From positions 1 to 25,309 of the IMG/VR virus record IMGVR_UViG_3300017743_000110: DNA of 25,309 nucleotides, one strand, 5' to 3'. Below, piece by piece: positions 6,098 through 23,842 of the stretch. The position numbers and the translations under genes are program-made. How positions within the stretch are numbered: the first letter of the stretch is position 1; every line of letters starts with the position of its first letter. Below the pieces are notes generated by a model. It was not told the DNA's origin. It did not search any database and saw only the letters and a program-made list of their open reading frames with translations. Source of the stretch: a virus.

Positions 6098-6808
6098 TTA
6101 TGGGTCAATTGAACGATTTTCTTGAGATTTATACATGTCAAGATCACTTTCTTGCTCAATTTTGCGCTCTTTTGACGTTTTCCAGAAGTATTCGTCCTCT
6201 CGACCCATTCCAAGACGGTCAAAACCGTTCTCAACTTGATAAACTTGCGTTGAAACCTTAAAATCAGGCATTTTTGGGGTCTCAGGTGTTAAACTATTGT
6301 CAAAAATACGCATCCGATTGTTTGGATACAGTGCATATTGACCATTTTCTAGTTCAATTAGGTTATGTGACTTATGTTCAGCTGGATTTTCGCTCGTTGC
6401 ATAGTCAATCATATTGCAATCTTGGTGATAATTGTCAATAGTACAAATATAAGTCCCTTTCATGATACCATGATCTCTAGTATAACACTCAAAATCCATT
6501 GAACCAATGAATTGTTTGTGAATTGATACAACACCATAGTCCATACAATTCCAAAATTGAAGATTTGGTAAAGTCATATCAGGATCTGGTGTCTTTGGTT
6601 CTGAGAGGAACGCGCTGATTGGTAATTTGTCATACATTGCGGCATATTCTGGTAAATATGTCTCAAAATAAAATGCTCGCCCAGGTATGCTTTTTGCTGA
6701 TACCCAAACGCCTTTTACAAATTCACCATGACCACTTTGATGATCTGTTAGATATTCTTTTCTTACCCATACTTCTTCAGAGGGTAAATTAACGATTAAA
6801 CATGCCAT
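6098..6808 (-). CDS. Conserved-type phage protein, 236 aa, unknown function
   Basis: I chose ATG at 6808 (MACLIVNLPSEEVWVRKEYL) over an in-frame GTG at 6832, because the extra eight residues look non-coding and a GGAA sequence precedes the ATG. The protein is soluble and rich in aromatic residues, with segments such as GRAFYFETYLPEYAAMYDKLP and QFWNCMDYGVVSIHKQF. It shows no membrane segment and no catalytic motif I recognise. The mid-region DCNMIDYATSENPAEHKSH and GQYALYPNNRMRIFD look like a compact folded domain. Its place in the structural block suggests a virion or morphogenesis role, but that is only inference from context. Confidence 0.8.
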   Translation of the reverse strand: MACLIVNLPSEEVWVRKEYLTDHQSGHGEFVKGVWVSAKSIPGRAFYFETYLPEYAAMYDKLPISAFLSEPKTPDPDMTLPNLQFWNCMDYGVVSIHKQFIGSMDFECYTRDHGIMKGTYICTIDNYHQDCNMIDYATSENPAEHKSHNLIELENGQYALYPNNRMRIFDNSLTPETPKMPDFKVSTQVYQVENGFDRLGMGREDEYFWKTSKERKIEQESDLDMYKSQENRSIDP

Positions 6809-8865: not shown

Positions 8866-8895
8866 TGTCCTGTGGTGTTGAACAACCGGATCATA
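8866..8895 (-). promoter_or_regulatory. -10 box and shared leader of the 92-aa gene
   Basis: TATGATCC (from 8895) is followed by GTTCAACACCACAG just before the ATG at 8865. The same arrangement precedes genes at 9170 and 9664. A TTCACA 18 bases upstream of the -10 box is a possible -35 box; it lies in the loop of the upstream terminator hairpin. Confidence 0.6.
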
Positions 8896-8899
8896 CCAT

Positions 8900-8926
8900 A
8901 AAAAATGGAAGGGTGTGAACCCTTCC
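8900..8926 (-). terminator. Rho-independent terminator of the 77-aa gene
   Basis: A perfect 7-bp stem GGAAGGG/CCCTTCC with a 6-base loop (8914-8919) is followed by A and a run of six T on the minus strand. It lies 10 bases past the stop of the gene at 8937. Confidence 0.85.
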
Positions 8927-9170: not shown

Positions 9171-9225
9171 GCTGTTCTGTGGTGTTGAACAATTGGATCA
9201 TACCATAAGGTGATCGCTTTGGGTA
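9171..9225 (-). promoter_or_regulatory. Promoter and shared leader of the 77-aa gene
   Basis: TATGAT (9202-9197) with a weak TACCCA -35 box 17 bases upstream (9225-9220). The leader GTTCAACACCACAG matches the one at 8866-8895. The -35 region overlaps the TAGTGTTCTG repeat. Confidence 0.55.
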
Positions 9226-9295: not shown

Positions 9296-9505
9296 TTAAC
9301 GGTAGGATACAACCGGAGCGGAAATGTTTCCAGGATGAATACACATATAGGTATCACCTAAAAATGTTCTCCCAAAAACGATTTTATGTGATCCACCGCT
9401 TTCTAAACATCGCAACTTTGCTTCATTATTCATTACGATGTGAGCAGGAAGAAATGTTGCACAGGTGGCAAAAATGCCTGCTAAAAATGGAAGTGAATTT
9501 TTCAT
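9296..9505 (-). CDS. Small secreted or membrane-anchored protein, 69 aa
   Basis: Starts MKNSLPFLAGIFATCATFLP, a short basic N-terminus plus hydrophobic core that resembles a signal peptide or anchor. It is followed by a small domain with two Cys (KLRCLESGGSHKIVF, DTYMCIHPGN) that could form a disulphide outside the cytoplasm. The ATG is 3 bases after the preceding stop. Function is unknown. Export is inferred only from the N-terminus. Confidence 0.7.
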   Translation of the reverse strand: MKNSLPFLAGIFATCATFLPAHIVMNNEAKLRCLESGGSHKIVFGRTFLGDTYMCIHPGNISAPVVSYR

Positions 9506-9508
9506 GAT

Positions 9509-9664
9509 TTAAGAATAAGTAAGTTCTACGGATTGAACTTTAGCGGGAGAACCACAAGAAAGGTAGAAAGTTTTCATCCTTTCAGCTTCTTCTAAAGTAG
9601 AGAATTCTTGAGTTCTCCATTCACAATCACCATAGGGTGACTGATAAAAAACAAGGAAAATCAT
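9509..9664 (-). CDS. Small protein, 51 aa
   Basis: Starts MIFLVFYQSPYGDCEWRTQE and continues with a helix-like STLEEAERMKTFYLSCGSPA and a strand KVQSVELTYS, a beta-alpha-beta pattern. It is the first gene after the dyad-bearing promoter at 9689-9717 and is followed by the small exported-type gene with a 3-base gap, so the two form an operon. There is no Shine-Dalgarno; the leader is the shared GTTCA-type one. Confidence 0.75.
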   Translation of the reverse strand: MIFLVFYQSPYGDCEWRTQEFSTLEEAERMKTFYLSCGSPAKVQSVELTYS

Positions 9665-9688
9665 GGTGTCTGTGGTGTGAACTTCCGG

Positions 9689-9741
9689 ATCATAAGGGAT
9701 CGGGTGAAATCAATCACCGAACCAGACCAGTTCAATAACTG
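9689..9741 (-). promoter_or_regulatory. Dyad-class promoter 1 (before the 51-aa gene)
   Basis: TATGAT (9694-9689), 17-base spacer, weak -35 GTGATT (9717-9712). Upstream is a perfect dyad CAGTT-CAAT-AACTG at 9728-9741, extended to CCAGTT/AACTGG. The outer end of the element is 27 bases from the -35 box. It lies in the last codons of the preceding gene. Confidence 0.65.
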
Positions 9742-9946
9742 GCACAGAACCTAGTGCAGTCTCATGAGAATTCGACAGTTGCCGAGACTGCTGTGGTATA
9801 TTGTGAAGGAATTCTGAAGGAGCATTTTTCACAGAGCACAGAACCCCTTGCAATCCACGGATCGCTTTATGAACATTTACACTATGTGGGTTCACACAAA
9901 CAACAGCACATCCCGCAGAATCTCCAATGATCAAAAACTTATTCAT
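9710..9946 (-). CDS. Hypothetical protein, 78 aa
   Basis: I chose ATG at 9946 (MNKFLIIGDSAGCAVVCVNP) rather than an in-frame start at 9997, because the extra residues are Gly/Pro-rich and unlike a protein start. A hydrophobic beta strand (KFLIIGDSAGCAVVCVN) leads into a polar region. The frame resembles a short nucleotide-binding-like start, but no motif is complete. There is no Shine-Dalgarno. Its 3' end contains the dyad of the next promoter. Its own promoter is not obvious. Confidence 0.55.
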   Translation of the reverse strand: MNKFLIIGDSAGCAVVCVNPHSVNVHKAIRGLQGVLCSVKNAPSEFLHNIPQQSRQLSNSHETALGSVPVIELVWFGD

Positions 9947-10491
9947 GGGTGGTGGATCGGTTCCCCCACATCCTGACTCAGATCCTGCTAATGGCAACCC
10001 CTCAAACCTGTATCAATCCTGAAACCAACACACGAATTTATGTGACAAAAACTCGACAATTCATCAAAAACTGTTATGGAGGTTCCAATCTAAAAAGTGT
10101 CACACTGACAGTTGACAAATCGGAACAGTACGGTAATAAGAATATAAGGGAAGAAAGAATAACAATAAGGGGAAAGATACAGAGGAAAAATATAAACAAC
10201 TGGAAGAAAGAAAAAATAATAATAAGAGAAAAAATACAAAAGAAAAAATATTATCAATCATCGAAAGATTTCAAAATTAAAATGAAACATAACGCGCACA
10301 CACATCTAGAACATAATGGCGCTGTGCCACCTCCAGAAGCGTCCACAAGGTGTCTATACACCATATCAGGTGTGATAGACTATGTGAAACATAAAGAGAG
10401 GAGAGGTATCCTTGTTGACGAAAATGTTCGACACCCAACCTGTCTACAACTATTCTTATTAAAATGATACTATTATATGTGATATACTATT
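9947..10491. other. Region without a confident gene
   Basis: A plus-strand frame runs from ATG 9991 to 10467. Its first 45 codons (MATPQTCINPETNTRIYVTK and onward) look protein-like, but the rest is a purine-rich low-complexity stretch (10135-10265) and then a copy of an intergenic repeat, and no ribosome site precedes it. I treat it as a possible gene remnant only. A TTGACA with TAATAA 16 bases later lies on the plus strand at 10109-10136. Confidence 0.5.
10323..10377. repeat. 55-bp dispersed repeat, copy 1
   Basis: Ungapped match to 11946-12000, about 42 of 55 positions identical by eye, with an identical core AAGCGTCCACAAGGTGTCT and identical ends TGTGCCAC and TGATA. Not inside a confident gene. 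Confidence 0.75.
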
Positions 10492-10589
10492 GTGTGATTT
10501 AAACTAGATGTATATGTGTGATTTAAACTAGATTAGTTAAGTGTGATATATCTAGACTAGATTTGTGTGATATAATCTAGTCTAGATTT
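10492..10589. repeat. Four tandem 24-25 bp repeats containing CTAG
   Basis: Units begin GTGTGAT at 10492, 10516, 10541 and 10565 and end with a CTAGAT-type core; the last two carry the near-palindromes TCTAGACTAGA and TCTAGTCTAGA. A partial fifth unit may lie at 10477-10490. The last unit shares ATAATCTAGTCTAGATTTC exactly with 12549-12567. Confidence 0.85.
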
Positions 10590-10612
10590 CTGGGGATTAT
10601 ATCATCCCCAGA
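10589..10612 (-). terminator. Hairpin at the stop of the winged-helix-like gene
   Basis: A 9-bp perfect stem TCTGGGGAT/ATCCCCAGA with a 6-base loop overlaps the stop codon at 10602-10604. No T-tract follows on the minus strand, so it may be a weak terminator or 3'-end stabiliser. Confidence 0.5.
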
Positions 10613-10901
10613 TCAATCGTGCGATTCTCTCACGTTTCCGCAGTGGTGCCAAGCGAGTGTATTCTACCCACCGTGCTCCCAATTCGTGACGCTTTACCAA
10701 TCCAGTCCGTGCCATCTCCTTAAGTAGGATTGAAACGGTTGTACGTGCTTCCTTAGGCATTCCTAAGGATTCATTAATATCAGTTGGACGCAAACCATCC
10801 TGCTCATGTCCGGGTCTGCCATTGTCCATGGGGAGAACCGATAAGATGGCATTCTGATAGGTTGCTCCGAATCGGTTGCGCTGTGTGATGGAAGTAAACA
10901 T
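10602..10901 (-). CDS. Winged-helix-like putative transcription regulator, 99 aa
   Basis: Starts MFTSITQRNRFGATYQNAIL. Residues 37-83 read LRPTDINESLGMPKEARTTV, then SILLKEMARTGLVKRHELGA and RWVEYTRL: helix, turn, recognition-type helix and a beta wing, as in small MarR/ArsR-like winged-helix proteins. The tail is basic (PLRKRERIARLIWG). The family call is from this pattern only, with no search. It follows the 45-residue gene and has a promoter of the TTGCAG-17-TAGGAT type. It lies near the promoters and repeats it might control, but no target is shown. Confidence 0.7.
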   Translation of the reverse strand: MFTSITQRNRFGATYQNAILSVLPMDNGRPGHEQDGLRPTDINESLGMPKEARTTVSILLKEMARTGLVKRHELGARWVEYTRLAPLRKRERIARLIWG

Positions 10902-10931
10902 GTTCAGGGTGTGATTGGTTTGAATAAACGT

Positions 10932-10960
10932 ATCCTACAGGATGGAGAGCAGTTCTGCAA
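10932..10960 (-). promoter_or_regulatory. Possible promoter of the winged-helix-like gene
   Basis: TTGCAG (10960-10955), 17-base spacer, TAGGAT (10937-10932), inside the 3' end of the 45-residue gene. The leader TTCAAACCAATCAC resembles the one before the gene at 11072. Confidence 0.45.
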
Positions 10961-11072
10961 CATCCACTCCTAGCAGTTGTGCCAGTTCTTCATTTGTCTT
11001 CCCGCTGATGATAGTGTAATCCTCAGGGGGAAGGAGTTCTTCAATCTGCTGATCAGTTGTCCAGGGATCCAT
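10935..11072 (-). CDS. Small acidic protein, 45 aa
   Basis: ATG at 11072, product starting MDPWTTDQQIEELLPPEDYT and continuing ISGKTNEELAQLLGVDVAEL, which resembles a short helix-turn-helix-like or helical segment. Too short for a confident family. It is followed 33 bases later by the winged-helix-like gene, in the same direction. A good TATAAT precedes it. There is no Shine-Dalgarno. Confidence 0.65.
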   Translation of the reverse strand: MDPWTTDQQIEELLPPEDYTIISGKTNEELAQLLGVDVAELLSIL

Positions 11073-11095
11073 GGTGATTGGTTTGAACTGATCCT

Positions 11096-11151
11096 ATTAT
11101 AAGCACAGAATGGGGGGATCGGTCAATCCCCCCCACAAACTTTACTTACTG
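11096..11151 (-). promoter_or_regulatory. Promoter with hairpin at -35 and a degenerate dyad
   Basis: TATAAT (11101-11096). TTGACC (11126-11121) is 19 bases upstream and sits in the loop of a perfect 8-bp GC-rich hairpin (11112-11133). A weak dyad CAGTA-N4-AAGTT (11151-11138) lies 28 bases upstream of TTGACC, the same register as the stronger copies. Confidence 0.5.
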
Positions 11152-11909
11152 TAACCTGCAAACTGTTTCGACTTGCGACGATCACGGATCGCAGCACCCC
11201 AGTCAGATCCCTTAGGTTGTGTGCCATGAACTAACAAAGCAAAGGGATTATCACCGAAACAATGTGAATCATCATGATCAACTTCCAGTCCCTCACTAAT
11301 AGCCTCCTCTTCATATTTGAAGACTTTAGAATATCTTGGGAAATAGTTTCTATCAATTAGATGATCCCATTGTCCGCCATAAGATGCAGTCATGTAAAAG
11401 TTTTCTGGCATATCAATAAGTTCTGCATCCAATTCATTAGTAAGAAAGAATGGCAAAGATTTACTATAGCAATAGAACTTAAGATCAGGATTGTTCTTTG
11501 CTACTATCAACCATGCTTCCAAATAAAGACTGGAGAAGAAGTCACCACTTTCATGAATTCTCACAAGTTTAGTGTTTTTTGTACGATGATAATTGATAGC
11601 GTATTCAATAACTTTGGCACATTCTTCCTGACTGATCTTCAAAGCAGAAACAATTATGTCCATATTGTTCTTACGGTTCTCAAATACTGCATCATATTGA
11701 ACCTCTGATGATGCTGCAAAGCATCGGAAGATTGTTTCTTTACCATCCAAGATCTTACGCTTCCCGCTTTCATAAACTGCGGACGATTTACAGAACCTAG
11801 CACCAGGGCAAGTCTTCCCTGCCGGTAGATTAAAGATCAAAGTTTTTTTGCCAAGTTTGGCGTTTCCTTTGGAAAAGTTCAGCATGGGAGGTGTGGTGGC
11901 GATGAACAT
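11142..11909 (-). CDS. GP88-like phage protein, 255 aa
   Basis: Starts MFIATTPPMLNFSKGNAKLG. The segment LPAGKTCPGARFC (28-40) and the later VRIHESGDFFSSLYLEAW (116-133) with FYCYSKSLPFF match the pattern I know from the phage 'gene product 88' family, which is widespread in phages and of unknown function. The Cys in TCPGARFC and the later CFAASSE could bind a metal. The gene is monocistronic: it has its own leader and is followed by a GC-rich hairpin. A copy of the 55-bp repeat lies just upstream of its promoter region. Confidence 0.8.
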   Translation of the reverse strand: MFIATTPPMLNFSKGNAKLGKKTLIFNLPAGKTCPGARFCKSSAVYESGKRKILDGKETIFRCFAASSEVQYDAVFENRKNNMDIIVSALKISQEECAKVIEYAINYHRTKNTKLVRIHESGDFFSSLYLEAWLIVAKNNPDLKFYCYSKSLPFFLTNELDAELIDMPENFYMTASYGGQWDHLIDRNYFPRYSKVFKYEEEAISEGLEVDHDDSHCFGDNPFALLVHGTQPKGSDWGAAIRDRRKSKQFAGYSK

Positions 11910-11945
11910 AGTATGCCAGTCAGATCCAACCTACGCAACCACCTT

Positions 11946-12000
11946 TGTGCCACTGCTAAAAGCGTCCACAAGGTGTCTCAAAATGACCTCAGGCATGATA
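11946..12000. repeat. 55-bp dispersed repeat, copy 2
   Basis: Matches 10323-10377 without gaps. It lies 37 bases upstream of the GP88-like start and just downstream of a terminator, so it occupies that gene's promoter region. Confidence 0.75.
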
Positions 12001-12003
12001 CCC

Positions 12004-12034
12004 AAAAAAAGGGGAGACCCTCCCAGATCTCCCC
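12004..12034 (-). terminator. Rho-independent terminator
   Basis: A 7-bp stem GGGGAGA/TCTCCCC with a 10-base loop is followed by seven T on the minus strand. It ends the transcript of the 38-residue and KTSC-like genes before the GP88-like gene. Confidence 0.88.
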
Positions 12035-12083
12035 CAATAACCCTTGACAATAATTAACAAACTTAATTTTTATATTATTATTT

Positions 12084-12200
12084 TTATTCTCCCTTTACTG
12101 TATCATGTTCGGTAGTTTCGATTATGGCATCAAGGATCTGTATGATCTCTTTACCATTTGATCCTTTTCTTAACAATGATATCAGAGTGTGTGTAGGCAT
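12084..12200 (-). CDS. Very small protein, 38 aa
   Basis: ATG at 12200; product MPTHTLISLLRKGSNGKEII followed by QILDAIIETTEHDTVKGE. The RKGSNGKEIIQILDAI part looks like a well-formed helix and recalls short cyanophage proteins. It lies between the KTSC-like gene and a terminator. Upstream is a GT-rich tract (12185-12262). There is no clear Shine-Dalgarno, so confidence is moderate. Confidence 0.55.
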   Translation of the reverse strand: MPTHTLISLLRKGSNGKEIIQILDAIIETTEHDTVKGE

Positions 12201-12272
12201 TTGTGATAATGCGTGTGTGTAAGTTATGTGGGTGTGTACGCTGTGTGAGCACCATACACACCCGTGTGTTCA

Positions 12273-12488
12273 TCAGGCAGCGACAGTGACGGTAGTCAGC
12301 ATGTCCTCGCGCAGGGCACGATTGATGAACTGACCCTTAGAGGTTGCTTCGTTAAACATTGTAACGAACTTTTCAACGTCTGAAACACCATAGGTGTACT
12401 TGCGTCCACCTGCGAAAGTTACATCAACATTACCATCGGTGCTGTTGGTGATACTCTCGATTGCGGATGAAGTGAAATCAGCGAACAT
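12273..12488 (-). CDS. KTSC-like domain protein, 71 aa
   Basis: Starts MFADFTSSAIESITNSTDGN; the pattern SSAIESI...DVTFAGGRKYTYGVSDVEKF...ATSKGQFINRAL matches the small KTSC domain, found in phage and bacterial proteins and alone or fused to other domains. Its biochemical role is not established. It is driven by a dyad-class promoter with a consensus TTGACA and a leader of about 55 bases. No strong ribosome site is seen. Confidence 0.85.
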   Translation of the reverse strand: MFADFTSSAIESITNSTDGNVDVTFAGGRKYTYGVSDVEKFVTMFNEATSKGQFINRALREDMLTTVTVAA

Positions 12489-12550
12489 AGTGTGAATCTC
12501 GATAAGGTTTTCTAGTGGAGTCTTTAAGGCGCTGCCGTTCCTATGTCGAT

Positions 12551-12604
12551 AATCTAGTCTAGATTTCCGTGAGTGTCAATCTCGACTAGACACTTTTTCA
12601 ACTG
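12551..12604 (-). promoter_or_regulatory. Dyad-class promoter 2 (before the KTSC-like gene)
   Basis: TTGACA (12579-12574), 17-base spacer, TAGATT (12556-12551) that lies in a CTAG repeat. The dyad CAGTT-N4-AAGTG is at 12604-12591, its outer AACC 28 bases from the -35 box. It overlaps the TGA of the 95-residue gene. Confidence 0.7.
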
Positions 12605-12885
12605 GTTGCAAGTTGATGTTGTAACATGAGTTGCTCTTCCGTGACCTCATCCACACAATCTTGAATTACAGTGTAGATGTAATCAATGTTCCCAACATCA
12701 TTGAAGATACGTTCTGCCAGTTCAGGAGTTATTTCTTCAGGAAGATACACCGGTTCATCATCACCTTCATCGCGAATCATACAATCTTCTTTAGTATAGA
12801 TCCATGCGGCACAATGGGCATCTTCACCCTGTTCTTTGATCATACTTGATACTCTGTCTTGGAGTTGTTTGAGAGTGTAGTTCAT
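12598..12885 (-). CDS. Acidic hypothetical protein, 95 aa
   Basis: Starts MNYTLKQLQDRVSSMIKEQG. Segments DAHCAAWIYTKEDCMI and PVYLPEEITPELAERIFNDV look like a small alpha/beta fold, close to short proteins common in T4-like phages. The strongly acidic composition is shared with the two genes before it. The ATG is 4 bases after the previous stop. Function is unknown. Confidence 0.8.
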   Translation of the reverse strand: MNYTLKQLQDRVSSMIKEQGEDAHCAAWIYTKEDCMIRDEGDDEPVYLPEEITPELAERIFNDVGNIDYIYTVIQDCVDEVTEEQLMLQHQLATS

Positions 12886-12889
12886 TGAT

Positions 12890-13132
12890 TCAGGATGCTG
12901 GTTTCATTGTATCAGAATAAGATACCTTGATGGAAGAATCTGGTGACAGATCTTTAAGTGTCTCCTCACCATAAAGATCAACAATTTCTGCTTTTACTTC
13001 TTCCTCATTCCATGTTTCGATGTTTTCCATGATACTATCAAAAGCAAATGTGATGAGAGTATCCATGTCCATCCCATCGATGATCATGTGAGTGTAATTC
13101 TCTTTAAGAGTTTCGAGTTCAGATTCATTCAT
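12890..13132 (-). CDS. Acidic hypothetical protein, 80 aa
   Basis: I prefer ATG 13132 (MNESELETLKENYTHMIIDG), 2 bases past the preceding stop, over an in-frame ATG at 13147 that would overlap it. Mostly helical and acidic (FAFDSIMENIETWNEEEVKA). It is the middle member of a three-gene operon. There is no domain name. Confidence 0.78.
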   Translation of the reverse strand: MNESELETLKENYTHMIIDGMDMDTLITFAFDSIMENIETWNEEEVKAEIVDLYGEETLKDLSPDSSIKVSYSDTMKPAS

Positions 13133-13134
13133 AA

Positions 13135-13269
13135 TCAGAAGTCCCATTTAGAATTAAGAAATGCTTCCAAAGTTTCATCATCAGACTTAGGTGATTCTTC
13201 AAAAGGATCTAATCCTTCATTCATTTCATCAACTAAGTCTGCAATTGAAAAGAGTTCAAATTCATCCAT
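13135..13269 (-). CDS. Small acidic protein, 44 aa
   Basis: ATG at 13269; product MDEFELFSIADLVDEMNEGL followed by DPFEESPKSDDETLEAFLNS and KWDF. Highly acidic. First gene of the operon driven by dyad-class promoter 3. Its stop is tightly packed against the next start. An acidic, possibly DNA-mimic-like composition is only a remark, not evidence. Confidence 0.7.
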   Translation of the reverse strand: MDEFELFSIADLVDEMNEGLDPFEESPKSDDETLEAFLNSKWDF

Positions 13270-13313
13270 GAGATTGAAAGGATTGAGTGATTGAGGTCTT
13301 TCCCCATGAACTT

Positions 13314-13367
13314 AATATAGAGGCACTGTAGGAGAATACAAGTACCTCTGTGACAGTTCTCAAACTG
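13314..13367 (-). promoter_or_regulatory. Dyad-class promoter 3
   Basis: TATATT (13319-13314), 17-base spacer, weak -35 CTTGTA (13342-13337). A perfect dyad CAGTT-TGAG-AACTG (13367-13354) is followed by TCAC; its outer AACC is 28 bases from the -35 box. It overlaps the TGA of the 169-residue gene. Confidence 0.7.
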
Positions 13368-13869
13368 GTTCAAGTACCTTCAAAGGTTCTTCTGTATTGA
13401 AATCATATTCCACAGTGTTAGTCTCACCCCAACCAAGTTTCCAACACTGCCAACCATGATCTGGGGTGAAAAGATAACACCATTCCTCACCACAATCGTC
13501 AGAGAGAAACTCATCGAAAGTAGACATACAAACCTCTATTTCTTCACCACGTTCGGTGTAGTACATAGGGCCAGGAATTTCTTTCTCAAGATCCATTATC
13601 CAGGAACCATCAGGGTGCTCCATGTAGATTAATTCAGTTTCTCCATCTGCACGAATCACACGACGTTTGAGTGGTTTAGAATCCCATGTATGTCTTGATT
13701 CAAGACAGGACATTCCACCACCATCGATTAACTCTTGAACCTGTTCTTTGGTTGTGTACTTAGCACAAAGAATGCGACCATTGTTACGAATGTAACCGTC
13801 GTAGTGACAATAAACACTAATGATCTGATCTGAACCAACTGCAAGTCCGATACGAGAACGAGTGCCCAT
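13360..13869 (-). CDS. Conserved phage protein, 169 aa, 'MGTRSRIG' type
   Basis: Starts MGTRSRIGLAVGSDQIISVY followed by CHYDGYIRNNGRILCAKY, a pattern I know from many phage and some bacterial small proteins of unknown function (typically SIYCHWDGYPENNG). The C-terminal part is rich in aromatic and acidic residues (EEWCYLFTPDHGWQCWKLGW). It follows the tRNA and is probably transcribed with it. There is no Shine-Dalgarno; a T-run lies just before the ATG. Confidence 0.88.
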   Translation of the reverse strand: MGTRSRIGLAVGSDQIISVYCHYDGYIRNNGRILCAKYTTKEQVQELIDGGGMSCLESRHTWDSKPLKRRVIRADGETELIYMEHPDGSWIMDLEKEIPGPMYYTERGEEIEVCMSTFDEFLSDDCGEEWCYLFTPDHGWQCWKLGWGETNTVEYDFNTEEPLKVLEPV

Positions 13870-13890
13870 GATAGGAAAAAAAGATTAAGG

Positions 13891-13974
13891 TGCGAGTGGG
13901 GAGACTTGAACTCCCACGGGATTACTCCCAACAGATTTTAAGTCTGGTGCGTCTACCGATTCCGCCACACTCGC
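13891..13974 (-). tRNA. trnL: tRNA-Leu (anticodon UAA)
   Basis: Perfect 7-bp acceptor stem GCGAGTG/CACTCGC, D-region GGCGGAATCGGTAGACGC, anticodon loop CTTAAAA within CCAGA/TCTG, a long variable arm typical of class II tRNA, and a T-arm GGGAGTTCAAGTCTCCC. The discriminator is A, as needed for Leu. CCA is not encoded in full (CCT follows). The promoter is at 13989-14017. Confidence 0.96.
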
Positions 13975-13988
13975 TTGAGTACTTCACA

Positions 13989-14017
13989 AATATAGGGGAT
14001 CGGTAGAGGTTTGTCAA
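13989..14017 (-). promoter_or_regulatory. Sigma70-type promoter of tRNA-Leu
   Basis: TTGACA (14017-14012), 17-base spacer, TATATT (13994-13989), about 15 bases upstream of the tRNA 5' end. It lies directly after the stop of the 48-residue gene. Confidence 0.75.
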
Positions 14018-14018
14018 G

Positions 14019-14165
14019 TCAAATATCAAACACTTTGACTGACCTGAGTTCATCCTCGAAGAATGGGTGGAACTCCTCCATCGTATCCAGCGAAAGGAGA
14101 TCGTTGTAGATCTGAGACCACTTATCGCAGTGGCACATGAGTTCTTCGTGTTCTTTATCACTCAT
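14019..14165 (-). CDS. Small acidic protein, 48 aa
   Basis: ATG 14165 shares the A of the previous TGA (TGATG). Product MSDKEHEELMCHCDKWSQIY then NDLLSLDTMEEFHPFFEDEL. The CHC could bind metal but is isolated. A GAGGA lies 9-11 bases upstream inside the preceding gene. Second gene of a two-gene operon. Function is unknown. Confidence 0.72.
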   Translation of the reverse strand: MSDKEHEELMCHCDKWSQIYNDLLSLDTMEEFHPFFEDELRSVKVFDI

Positions 14166-14302
14166 CACATGAATTCCTCAATAAAGTAATCAATTGTAAT
14201 CTCTTGTTCTTCACAATACTTTTCAAGATCTTCTGGTAAGTCATTAAGAATATTACTCCAGGAAAACTTCTCCCAGAGTTTGTAGAATTGATCAGAGTTC
14301 AT
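14165..14302 (-). CDS. Small acidic protein, 45 aa
   Basis: ATG 14302 with an AAGGA ribosome site and a perfect consensus promoter just upstream. Product MNSDQFYKLWEKFSWSNILN then DLPEDLEKYCEEQEITIDYF. Probably two amphipathic helices. Early expression is expected from the promoter. There is no family name. Confidence 0.75.
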   Translation of the reverse strand: MNSDQFYKLWEKFSWSNILNDLPEDLEKYCEEQEITIDYFIEEFM

Positions 14303-14329
14303 AAAGTCCTTATCAAAGCGGACAAACCT

Positions 14330-14358
14330 ATTATAATCATATAATGCATATGTGTCAA
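14330..14358 (-). promoter_or_regulatory. Perfect consensus sigma70 promoter
   Basis: TTGACA (14358-14353), 17-base spacer, TATAAT (14335-14330). The start would be near 14323, giving a leader of about 20 bases to ATG 14302. No dyad is seen upstream. Confidence 0.85.
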
Positions 14359-14383
14359 CCTTATTGTTATTATTTCAGGACAT

Positions 14384-14406
14384 AAAAAAAGACCCCTCTC
14401 GGGGTC
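14384..14406 (-). terminator. Rho-independent terminator
   Basis: A 6-bp stem GACCCC/GGGGTC with loop GAGA is followed by seven T on the minus strand, 6 bases past the stop of the 56-residue gene. Confidence 0.92.
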
Positions 14407-14412
14407 ATAAGA

Positions 14413-14583
14413 TTACCAACGATCTGGACACGATAGGTTCTCTACGTATGCGTTTATCTTCTCGGCACCCTGAATGTCTAGAGTCTTCTCCCAATCAATC
14501 TGATGTGGGTCGAAGTCTTCTAGTACTTCTAGTTCTAGAGTGATGCGATACTTTTGCTTTTGACCGAGAAGATAAGCTGGCAT
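14413..14583 (-). CDS. Small protein, 56 aa
   Basis: I chose ATG 14583 (MPAYLLGQKQKYRITLELEV) over an upstream in-frame start at 14643, because AAAGGG lies just before it and the extra residues overlap the promoter. Pattern of beta strand then acidic loop then DWEKTLDIQGAEKINAYVEN. It recalls a recurrent small cyanophage protein. A one-gene unit with its own promoter and terminator. Confidence 0.8.
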   Translation of the reverse strand: MPAYLLGQKQKYRITLELEVLEDFDPHQIDWEKTLDIQGAEKINAYVENLSCPDRW

Positions 14584-14611
14584 GAGAACCCTTTGCGATG
14601 AACTTAAGGTT

Positions 14612-14640
14612 AATATAGACCAATATCGATGACCTGTCAA
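14612..14640 (-). promoter_or_regulatory. Sigma70-type promoter of the 56-aa gene
   Basis: TTGACA (14640-14635), 17-base spacer, TATATT (14617-14612). Confidence 0.8.
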
Positions 14641-14641
14641 C

Positions 14642-14773
14642 ATGTGAGTATGACAGATCTCGATGTGTCTCGATATGCATATAATCTTATATAGACATGA
14701 TACTATAAAATATGTGAATACTCACATATCTCGACTAGATTCTTATGTGAATAAGTGTGTGATCTCGACTAGA
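14642..14773. repeat. Tandem repeats with ATCTCGACTAGA core
   Basis: Two about 30-33 bp units start TATGTGAATA at 14711 and 14744 and each contain ATCTCGACTAGA (14728-14739, 14762-14773). A degenerate third copy (ATGTGAGTAT then ATCTCGA) lies at 14642-14677. The same 12-mer is at 12579-12590. Confidence 0.75.
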
Positions 14774-14817
14774 AAAAAAGAACCTCATGAGACCATGCTG
14801 TTGTCTCGACGAGATTC
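14773..14817 (-). terminator. Strong rho-independent terminator
   Basis: About 14 bp of stem with one bulge and two G-T pairs (GAATCTCGT and C-GAGAC against GTCTC-ATGAGGTTC), loop of 9, then seven T on the minus strand. Confidence 0.8.
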
Positions 14818-14830
14818 TTAGCAACCCCAC
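14773..14830 (-). ncRNA. Putative small RNA, about 58 nt
   Basis: A good promoter (14837-14865) is followed within 15-20 bases by a strong terminator ending in seven T at 14773. The only open frame between them is the 4-codon ATG-TGG-GGT-TGC. The product would be a short RNA that is mostly the terminator hairpin. It could instead be an attenuator or a terminated leader. It lies in a gene-free stretch. Confidence 0.5.
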
Positions 14831-14836
14831 ATAAGA

Positions 14837-14865
14837 ACTATAAGGCATGAGAGTGATTCTGTCAA
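14837..14865 (-). promoter_or_regulatory. Sigma70-type promoter of the putative small RNA
   Basis: TTGACA (14865-14860), 17-base spacer, TATAGT (14842-14837). Confidence 0.78.
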
Positions 14866-14926
14866 CCCCTGAGTGCTTATGGTTTTGATTGATAAAGAGA
14901 CCTTATGGGAAAATATTTCGGGTCCC

Positions 14927-14955
14927 TTGACAAAAACTTATGGTCGTGTTATAAT
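14927..14955 (+). promoter_or_regulatory. Perfect consensus sigma70 promoter on the plus strand
   Basis: TTGACA (14927-14932), 17-base spacer, TATAAT (14950-14955). It reads toward the HNH gene, with a leader of about 255 bases. It is back to back with the small-RNA promoter. Confidence 0.82.
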
Positions 14956-15219
14956 AAAACGTCTAAGATCACCCATAAGATTCACAAAAAGATTCATAAG
15001 ATTCACAAAAAGATTCATAAGAATTAAGAAAGAATCAGGAAAAAAATAGAAAGAATTATAAGGATTGAGAAAGAAATAGAAGATAATAATAAGAAAAACT
15101 AATTGTCCATCAAGAACATAAAACCATAAAAAAACCTTAAAATGTTTTTAATGTTATGATTCTCCTACATAATAAAAAATGAAGTCTATTTATAAGGTTT
15201 TCAAAGGGGTATTTTTGAG
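14956..15219 (+). other. Purine-rich leader of the HNH gene
   Basis: The region holds the 21-bp tandem repeat (14974-15022), then a purine-rich, A-rich run to about 15110, then AT-rich sequence. I see no gene except a 14-codon frame at 15179-15223. The purine-rich composition resembles 10135-10265. Confidence 0.6.
14974..15022. repeat. 21-bp tandem repeat, 2.3 copies
   Basis: Exact unit CATAAGATTCACAAAAAGAT plus T at 14974-14994 and 14995-15015, with the start of a third copy to 15022. Confidence 0.9.
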
Positions 15220-15223
15220 GTGA
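15179..15223 (+). CDS. Possible 14-aa leader peptide
   Basis: ATG at 15179 encodes MKSIYKVFKGVFLR and its TGA overlaps the GTG start of the HNH gene (GTGA). This could couple translation of the two, but so short a frame may be chance. Confidence 0.25.
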   Translation: MKSIYKVFKGVFLR

Positions 15224-15753
15224 GAAAGAAACTAAGTGACATCAAAGGACTGGAACTATTCTCTGAATATGAGATAGATTCCGATGGTTATGTTGTATCT
15301 CATAAGGGTAGAACACCCAGGGTATTAAAACCATACTGGACATATTGTCCTGGTGAGTATAGAGCAATACAGTTATATGATACAGAGAAGAAAAGAAAGA
15401 TTCTTTATATTCATAGATTAGTTGCAGAAGCATTCATACCTAACCCTACTGATAGTTGGGGAGTTAGACATAAGAATGATGATCATGATAATAATCATAT
15501 TGATAACTTAGAATGGACACCTAAGCGTGTATATGATAGTAATAAGAATATAATTGATAATGATAGTTTAATACTCTCTCCTGATATATCTGATTATATT
15601 AAATTAGTACATCGTGCATGTTTAGAGAAAGGTGTACCAGTTCCGAATGAATATGACTTTTATCATACTATGATTGAACACTCATTAACTGAATATATTA
15701 ACCGTTATGGTTTAAAGAAGACAATACATCAGATAACACATTCCAACCAGTAA
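15220..15753 (+). CDS. HNH homing endonuclease-like protein, 177 aa
   Basis: N-terminal NUMOD4-like segment (YEIDSDGYVVSHKG, 17-30), then HRLVAEAFIPNP (65-76) and the HNH_3-type core VRHKNDDHDNNHIDNLEWT (82-100), with catalytic-type His84 and Asn/His in NNHIDN. The C-terminal 75 residues are probably for DNA recognition. The start is GTG with AAAGGGG about 10 bases upstream; an upstream in-frame stop at 15193 limits other starts. It is the only confident plus-strand gene here, with its own consensus promoter, as expected of a free-standing mobile endonuclease. Its last 56 bases overlap the convergent oxygenase gene. Confidence 0.88.
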   Translation: MRKKLSDIKGLELFSEYEIDSDGYVVSHKGRTPRVLKPYWTYCPGEYRAIQLYDTEKKRKILYIHRLVAEAFIPNPTDSWGVRHKNDDHDNNHIDNLEWTPKRVYDSNKNIIDNDSLILSPDISDYIKLVHRACLEKGVPVPNEYDFYHTMIEHSLTEYINRYGLKKTIHQITHSNQ

Positions 15754-20564: not shown

Positions 20565-20619
20565 AATATAAAACCCTTCACAGGTTTTGTAAAGGGTCAG
20601 TGTGACAGTTTTTAATCTG
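20565..20619 (-). promoter_or_regulatory. Dyad-class promoter 6
   Basis: TATATT (20570-20565), 17-base spacer, TTTACA (20593-20588). The dyad CAGAT-N4-AACTG (20619-20606) is followed by TCAC; its outer AACC is 29 bases from the -35 box. It overlaps the TAA of the 54-residue gene. Confidence 0.68.
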
Positions 20620-23386: not shown

Positions 23387-23842
23387 TTATCTCCAATTTT
23401 TTGGTGTTTTACTAATTTTATATGCATTTTTTCTCAGACTATACCGTTTGATATATTTTTGCATATGTTCTTCACATTGAAAGTAGCAAACTTTCATTTC
23501 CTTTATATTTTTTTGCTTATGTACAAACTTGATGGGAAATGTTTCATGAAATGATGAGTTATCATTGCCAACAAAACCAGAGTCAATAAGTTCTTGTTTT
23601 TTAGTATATTTTTCTACTGCTTTTGGTTTAGCAGGTGTTTTTGGTTTGGCAGGAGTTTTAGGTTTACTAGTTGTTTTTGGTTTAGCAGGTGTTTTTGGTT
23701 TGGCAGGAGTTTTAGGTTTAGTTGTTGCCTTTGGTTTTTTAGTTGTTACCTTTGGTTTTTTAGTTGTTGCCTTTGGTTTAGCAGGAGTTTTAGGTTTGGG
23801 TGTTACCTTTGGTTTGGAAATTCTTTTCTTTCTCTCTGTCAT
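23387..23842 (-). CDS. Lys/Pro-repeat protein with C-terminal domain, 151 aa
   Basis: Residues 9-75 are built from KPKTPAKPK, KPKATTKKPK and KPKTTSKPK units, like histone H1-type or AlgP-type tails that bind nucleic acid. Residues 76-151 form a separate domain (DSGFVGNDNSSFHETFPIKF, CYFQCEEHMQKYIKRYSLRK), not recognised. ATGA overlap with purM. DNA-binding or compaction is inferred from composition only. Confidence 0.85.
   Translation of the reverse strand: MTERKKRISKPKVTPKPKTPAKPKATTKKPKVTTKKPKATTKPKTPAKPKTPAKPKTTSKPKTPAKPKTPAKPKAVEKYTKKQELIDSGFVGNDNSSFHETFPIKFVHKQKNIKEMKVCYFQCEEHMQKYIKRYSLRKNAYKISKTPKNWR
23605..23815 (-). repeat. Degenerate tandem repeat coding for Lys/Pro units
   Basis: Short units such as CCTAAAACTCCTGCC and CCAAAAACACCTGC recur, covering the low-complexity half of the gene. 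Copy number is likely to vary between relatives by slippage or recombination. Confidence 0.8.

Follow-up and report, generated by a model that had tools for sequence, protein, structure and literature searches.

A palindromic repeat array in a cyanomyovirus gene block

The window analysed here is an entire IMG/VR virus record of 25,309 bases, which we assign by its genes (baseplate wedge proteins, ferredoxin and PurM) to a T4-like cyanomyovirus, of which it is a fragment; its DNA matches mainly Synechococcus phages. The conserved genes around the array run on the minus strand, where the order in the coding direction is a cluster of palindromic sites (the third cluster), F68, further sites, GP88, a winged-helix gene, the array, F54 and the MAKG gene. 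F68 is a phrog_12516 gene (14413–14643, minus strand; PHROG E 1.1e-21) that lies downstream of the third cluster and is likely to have its true start at 14583. A KTSC-like ORF of 71 amino acids (12273–12488, minus strand; PF13619 E 0.0011, below the curated cut-off) lies downstream of the second cluster, and the GP88 family protein (PF17338), a member of the conserved block, is encoded at 11142–11909 on the minus strand. Downstream of the array, the first conserved gene to be recognised is that of the F54 family, a 51-aa ORF (GDCEWRTQEF...SCGSPA) at 9509–9664 (minus strand).

The array itself, at 10492–10589, is real and not a product of chance. Its four tandem units of 24–25 bp were found where the initial annotation had placed them, with GTGTGAT[A/T]TA beginning at 10492, 10516, 10541 and 10565 (spacing 24, 25 and 24 nt) and a fifth, weaker GTGTGAT-like half at 10477, and TRF delimits the repeat to 10490–10589 with a period of 24, 4.1 copies and a score of 102, which exceeds the best score (81) of all 200 dinucleotide shuffles. 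Each unit had also been described as carrying a near-palindrome with CTAG; this holds fully for the last two units, which contain the perfect palindromes TCTAGACTAGA (10551–10561) and TCTAGTCTAGA (10576–10586), whereas the first two carry a degenerate form, TTTAAACTAGA, with two mismatches (10498–10508 and 10522–10532). The rarity ascribed to CTAG amounts in the window to a mild scarcity only (43 occurrences vs 59 expected, with at least 43 in 98 of 100 shuffles), and six of the 43 fall within the 98 bases of the array.

When the unit is sought across the whole window, GTGTGATWTA at one mismatch shows no excess (8 matches vs 6.3 by chance), but the exact palindrome does. Comparison of the window palindromes by eye identifies the odd palindrome TCTMGWCKAGA, not the whole 24–25 bp unit, as the constant element, and its only exact occurrences in the window are at 10551, 10576, 12553, 12580, 14729, 14763 and 14804, seven copies against a mean of 0.04 and a maximum of 2 in 200 shuffles. 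At two mismatches the window holds 18 matches, no excess over the 16.05 expected by chance. The exact copies lie in three gaps of one minus-strand gene block: besides the two in the array, TCTAGTCTAGA at 12553–12563 and TCTCGACTAGA at 12580–12590 form the second cluster, and the third comprises TCTCGACTAGA at 14729–14739, TCTCGACTAGA at 14763–14773 with GTGTGTGA just before it, and TCTCGACGAGA at 14804–14814.

Several further repeats are present in the window. A 55-nt imperfect repeat (76%) with GCGTCCACAAGGTGTC, at 10323–10377 and 11946–12000, constitutes a second repeated non-coding element, and by eye a similar CTTGTG...GGCACA element is seen in the gap of P-SSM2 that holds palindromes. A 36-nt repeat (92% identical; 8866–8901 and 9173–9208) precedes two small minus-strand ORFs and probably represents duplicated promoter and start regions. 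The arms of a 29-nt inverted repeat (86%) lie 10.5 kb apart, at 10091–10119 and 20586–20614, with GTGTCACACTGACAG on one arm, and the minus-strand ORF 23387–23842 encodes a repetitive protein, with 18-, 21- and 54-nt tandem repeats at 23618–23779.

Recurrence of the palindrome in related phages

The composite unit of GTGTGAT and CTAG, real in the array, is not a general unit in relatives. Scanning viral contigs for GTGTGATN{0,6}CTMGWCTAGA returned 30 loci, of which 16 were judged by inspection to hold clusters, so that they do not form an unbiased set, and 14 were judged to be chance matches, mostly intragenic. Whole-record searches covered 24 of the 30 loci: the 16 cluster records contain 3–8 palindromes each (two of them with one reversed-control match), and the eight records with a supposed chance match contain none or one.

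The palindrome, by contrast with its controls, is abundant. At least 119 stretches with a site pair are found in viral contigs, compared with 10 for the complement control, and 115 viral loci selected for the pair contain 480 sites and a single reversed-control site. A fairer sample is provided by 38 loci picked by the winged-helix protein alone, several of them near-identical contigs and some overlapping with the GTGTGAT-type scan, which contain 113 sites and no reversed control; the site is present in 23 of these, and 13 of the other 15 hold less than 4 kb upstream. Since many loci are related, site counts are not independent events. In the 115 loci, 392 of the 480 sites lie outside ORFs of at least 80 aa, which cover 65% of the bases.

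Sixteen named phages, 15 cyanophages and T4, were searched as whole records. Clusters are present in five, namely S-BM3 (4 sites), S-SRM01 (6, one of which, at 154364, is solitary and inside a gene), P-SSM2 (4), S-SKS1 (2) and S-T4 (8). Syn9 (inside a gene) and DSL-LC03 have a single site each, and no exact site occurs in the whole records of S-SCSM1, S-PM2, S-SM2, S-RSM4, ACG-2014b, Sf-FR1, Bellamy, S-CAM7 and T4. Exact sites are thus absent from eight of the 15 cyanophage records and single in two more, and because the reversed control gives 10 matches against 26 sites over the 16 records, a lone site in a complete genome can be due to chance. In S-T4 (MH412654), four sites with identical spacing lie at 2777–2934 and again at 174346–174503, near both ends of the record, which suggests a duplicated assembly end or terminal redundancy. 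S-CAM7, without an exact palindrome, has five close copies of CGCAGNATAT at 54655–54750, partly inside a small annotated ORF and a short distance ahead of its F68 homologue; at this same locus, the phage may have a diverged operator specificity.

Architecture of the site

Conservation spans ~15 nt, AATCTMGWCKAGATT, with none further out, and centres on (A)TCTMGWCKAGA(T), in which two 5-bp half-sites flank one central base. The palindrome is constant among relatives, with its core switching between CTAG and CTCG. Neighbouring sites are spaced 13–78 nt apart (counted up to 80), with modes at 24 and 31–32 nt in the pair-selected set, where the site-pair pattern itself favours spacings of 21–41. 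The proposal that the spacing is compatible with helical turns is not borne out: 24–25 bp corresponds to ~2.3 turns, the site spacings have no 10.5-nt phase, and phase coherence for spacings up to 55 nt peaks near a period of 9. Generic palindrome density and local 8-mer repeats were uninformative.

The symmetry of the sites could also be read at the level of RNA, as hairpins in the transcript leader and gaps that serve processing, protein binding or antitermination. Symmetric sites could form five pairs with a 3-nt loop, the sense strand of the linkers is A-rich and G-poor, and of 430 unique sense-oriented sites 272 have A and 158 have T at the centre. However, the half-sites vary independently in the same 430 sites, with 147 unpaired combinations at the closing positions against 158.9 expected (Fisher p 0.15), and this independence of the two variable positions implies that the sites are not maintained as a base-paired RNA stem. 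In addition, many sites fill promoter spacers and would not be transcribed from that promoter. These observations render the hairpin reading extremely improbable. A tRNA is the sole Rfam match to reach gathering score in the window.

Relatives differ in how many 24-nt tandem units they carry, with five in L017 and L032 and two plus a variant in L015 and L025, and some sites lie within coding frames, as might be expected of a selfish or mutation-driven palindromic repeat that spreads without function by tandem duplication and copying. Yet the flanks are not conserved beyond ~15 nt, so no larger mobile unit moves, and the sites occupy conserved places and strike promoter spacers above chance, which makes such a repeat quite improbable. 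In L017 (2231–2343) and L032 (13698–13810) we note that the five 24-nt copies lie in an opposite-strand open frame that reads QESRLDHT five times; in the relatives L015 and L025 this frame stops at the first full palindrome.

Conserved positions within the gene block

Comparison of the gap sequences among relatives, as the initial annotation had proposed, shows that palindrome clusters recur at conserved places. The fullest order on the coding strand (for example in L056) is sites, small acidic gene, F68, sites, GP88, winged-helix gene, sites, F54, MazE/AbrB-like gene and MAKG gene, of which most loci cover only a part; the window has no recognisable small acidic gene or MazE/AbrB-like gene. 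Among 128 site-bearing loci, the small acidic gene (MYDDYDLDY...DLDEDYA...AYRHYA; median pI of the protein 4.1) is found in 77, at a median of 15 nt from a site, the F68 (phrog_12516-like) gene in 84, at 224 nt, and the F54 gene in 37, at 47 nt. When 40 loci were examined, a palindrome was found within 1.2 kb upstream of F54 in 13 of the 14 loci with this gene, which include the window and groups of near-identical contigs; in L068–L072, F54 precedes the winged-helix gene. Given this synteny, the simplest reading is that the array is the syntenic counterpart of the clusters of 2–4 palindromes that precede F54 in relatives.

The word also reaches into coding sequence. In 68 unique small acidic genes, LDE or LDD is written CTMGACGAG in 83 of 118 cases, compared with 2 of 57 in other long ORFs at the same loci, a codon bias which implies that within this gene the word is maintained, or has been introduced recently, as DNA sequence. 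Either would be unusual for an operator of a lytic phage.

Overlap with promoter-like sequences

Two of the window clusters are associated with sigma-70-like promoters on the minus strand. Upstream of the ORF at 12273–12488, TTGACA-17-TAGATT (10/12; 12579–12551) has its spacer and second hexamer overlapped by the palindrome at 12553–12563, and its first hexamer is abutted by that at 12580–12590. TTGACA-17-TATAGT (11/12; 14837–14865) immediately precedes the third cluster in the coding direction. Single matches of this kind are weak evidence, as 24 promoter-like sites are found in 9500–15300 vs 17.2 in shuffles, and within this region no strong promoter-like site adjoins the array.

Across the 115 pair-selected loci the association is pronounced. 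With a strict pattern, TTG[AC][CA][AT]-16/18-TA[TC]AAT within 150 nt of a palindrome core, the core falls inside the spacer in 46 of 89 promoter-like sites, compared with a mean of 18.3 and a maximum of 31 when the cores were rotated at random within the same 300 nt (1000 trials). A loose form of the promoter gives 63 of 149, against 30.6 by rotation (maximum 44). In P-SSM2, the palindrome constitutes the spacer of a perfect TTGACA-17-TATAAT before PSSM2_098.

Candidate binding proteins

The winged-helix gene (10602–10901, minus strand), next to the array, encodes a basic protein of 99 aa with a predicted MarR/IclR/ArsR-like fold. Its Pfam matches lie below the cut-off (MarR_2, E 0.0051, 17.4 bits vs a cut-off of 27; HTH_IclR, E 0.0055), a fold model (pLDDT 77.9) has the order H-H-H-E-E-H and a winged-helix fold with recognition helix and wing, and the top Foldseek matches, mostly of ArsR/MarR type, are weak (best E 4.6e-3, none at or below 0.001); a profile search of solved-structure sequences with the protein found nothing convincing. 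Related proteins are encoded at 38 loci, and a second winged-helix family, related to the first by profile with an hhalign probability of 75%, at 19; the families are basic (median pI 10.5). An unannotated frame of S-SRM01 (MW015081; 90334–90636) encodes a homologue 51% identical to that of the window, near the site cluster of that phage at 90907–91006. We regard the 99-aa protein as the likeliest binder of the palindromes among those encoded in the window, an assignment that we put forward tentatively. The partner is not universal: relatives of this protein (P0001) occur in only 5 of the 115 pair-selected loci, many of which are short, and neither winged-helix profile matches the site-bearing S-SKS1, S-T4, P-SSM2 or S-BM3.

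TubR, which matches the winged-helix protein weakly in Foldseek (3m9a, rank 21), likewise combines a winged-helix protein with a tandem array of sites. In the TubR system the iterons are direct repeats with a motor gene next to them; no motor gene was found among the subset of window ORFs searched against PHROGs or Pfam. The partition role suggested for the array finds no support.

A MazE/AbrB-like protein (phrog_661) was also considered. Its gene is present in 32 of the 38 loci selected by the winged-helix protein, in 41 of the 115 selected by site pair, in 7 of the 30 selected by the GTGTGAT pattern and in none of 10 control loci. In all 71 cases it is located on the 3' side of the nearest site, a placement that may only reflect the block running one way. 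In a comparison of five site-positive with four site-negative complete genomes, for families present in the former and absent from the latter, it was the sole obvious dimeric DNA-binding family among those listed. We disfavour it as the binder: it is acidic (median pI 4.1), was not found in the window, and is also present in S-PM2, S-RSM4, ACG-2014b and S-CAM7, all without an exact site. Syn9 and DSL-LC03, with one site each, encode it as well.

The sites could instead be bound by a host transcription factor, through which the phage would read the state of the host. The promoters resemble host sigma-70 promoters, and the site-positive phages were not found to share any one phage DNA-binding protein. 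Against this, a scan of one genome per species for 84,980 bacterial and archaeal species, which covers site pairs only, returned 26 stretches, none of them titled as a cyanobacterium (two titles say only 'bacterium'), and we consider a host factor very unlikely. Of these bacterial loci, 25 have only two or three sites; the remaining one, L210, has seven, as well as two ORFs with similarity to those of cyanophages, and probably represents binned phage DNA. Three other bacterial loci have one such ORF.

DnaA boxes near the palindromes

The initial annotation had also raised a role in replication, and the palindromes might be origin iterons that, next to DnaA boxes in a long, AT-rich non-coding gap, bind an initiator of the phage or the host. 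Indeed, perfect DnaA 9-mers occur as pairs (within 120 nt) in 20 of the 115 pair-selected loci, compared with one for the reversed control, and of 74 DnaA boxes 58 are no more than 600 nt from a palindrome, compared with 7 of 21 control words. The densest DnaA-box group of the genome is at this locus in S-SKS1 (151414–151464), S-BM3 (6754–6786) and S-SM2 (58064–58093, inside an annotated ORF of 34 aa), and the extreme of the detrended cumulative GC skew is near the cluster in P-SSM2 (65745 vs 66030); in S-T4 it is no more than 3.3 kb from one of the cluster copies (171107 vs 174346). However, the two elements part company: the window has no perfect DnaA box, so that a replication role for this array is not supported; S-SM2 has DnaA boxes and no exact palindrome; S-SRM01, S-T4 and P-SSM2 have palindromes without a DnaA-box pair; in S-SRM01, S-SKS1 and S-BM3 the skew extremes lie a long way from the clusters; and palindromes recur in gaps several kilobases away, between genes and within coding sequence. 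Origin iterons are accordingly an unlikely explanation of the palindromes. The DnaA-box pairs or triplets, which in 19 of the 20 loci (L112, L116, L128, L134, L155, L160 and 14 others) lie 113–438 nt from the nearest palindrome, may themselves mark a DnaA-dependent origin in the same gap of T4-like cyanophages. A single theta origin was predicted for Syn9, according to a review (PMC2984593).

A proposed dispersed operator-like regulon

The suggestion that the array is a row of protein-binding sites is the reading best supported by the sequence data, namely by symmetry, recurrent places, promoter overlap and independent half-sites. We consider it probable that the array belongs, as one cluster among several, to a dispersed family of operator-like sites for a dimeric DNA-binding protein, which would act as operators or roadblocks. 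From the position and symmetry of the sites alone, we infer binding by a protein that may be phage-encoded, repression, and an early character of the block. The dimer would contact the palindrome at its two half-sites; at sites within or adjoining a sigma-70-like promoter, the bound protein would compete with RNA polymerase, and tandem sites in gaps within the block, such as that at 10492–10589, could provide extra cooperative sites or roadblocks to transcription. The predicted outcome is that the genes of an early-type block are timed together, probably by being shut off.

The nearest functional analogue is provided by the stoperators of mycobacteriophage L5, which are bound by the Gp71 repressor in short gaps along the genome and at an early promoter and are thought to silence through-transcription; these sites are asymmetric and oriented, and the protein is the immunity repressor of a temperate phage. 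Both systems repeat a short site in gaps and at promoters, and the sites described here recur far above chance in such locations. They are, however, symmetric, lack the L5-type orientation, are mostly clustered in one block and belong to T4-like cyanophages, and are not members of the L5 class. Operators of the P1 C1 and lambda type bind dimeric or symmetric repressors, overlap sigma-70 promoters and occur several per control region. The symmetric sites described here likewise overlap sigma-70-like promoters, but are also found in promoterless gaps and inside a coding region, and no immunity repressor of the P1 C1 or lambda-type families was identified here.

T4 belongs to the same phage superfamily and faces the same regulatory problem, which it solves with the MotA/AsiA switch from early to middle transcription, whereas, according to a review (PMC2984593), motA and asi are missing from cyanomyoviruses and it is not settled how these phages conduct early and middle transcription. 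A comparative study that looked in cyanophages for promoters of the sigma-70, late, Pho and NtcA types (PMC3037559) does not contain the string 'palindrom', and the sites are not described in the available portions of the cyanophage literature searched, including PMC8557907, PMC5082946, PMC3037559 and PMC2984593. We raise the possibility, still short of an even chance, that lytic T4-like cyanophages possess an operator or roadblock regulon, written into early-type promoter spacers, gaps of the gene block and codons of the small acidic gene and served by a phage-encoded winged-helix or other regulator, that replaces MotA/AsiA, and that this proposed regulon sits in a gap which in some phages also resembles a DnaA-dependent origin. 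The defined site, with its conserved places in promoters and its presence in P-SSM2, S-SKS1, S-BM3, S-T4 and S-SRM01, would offer DNA bait and reporter targets with which to approach the missing regulator of these phages.
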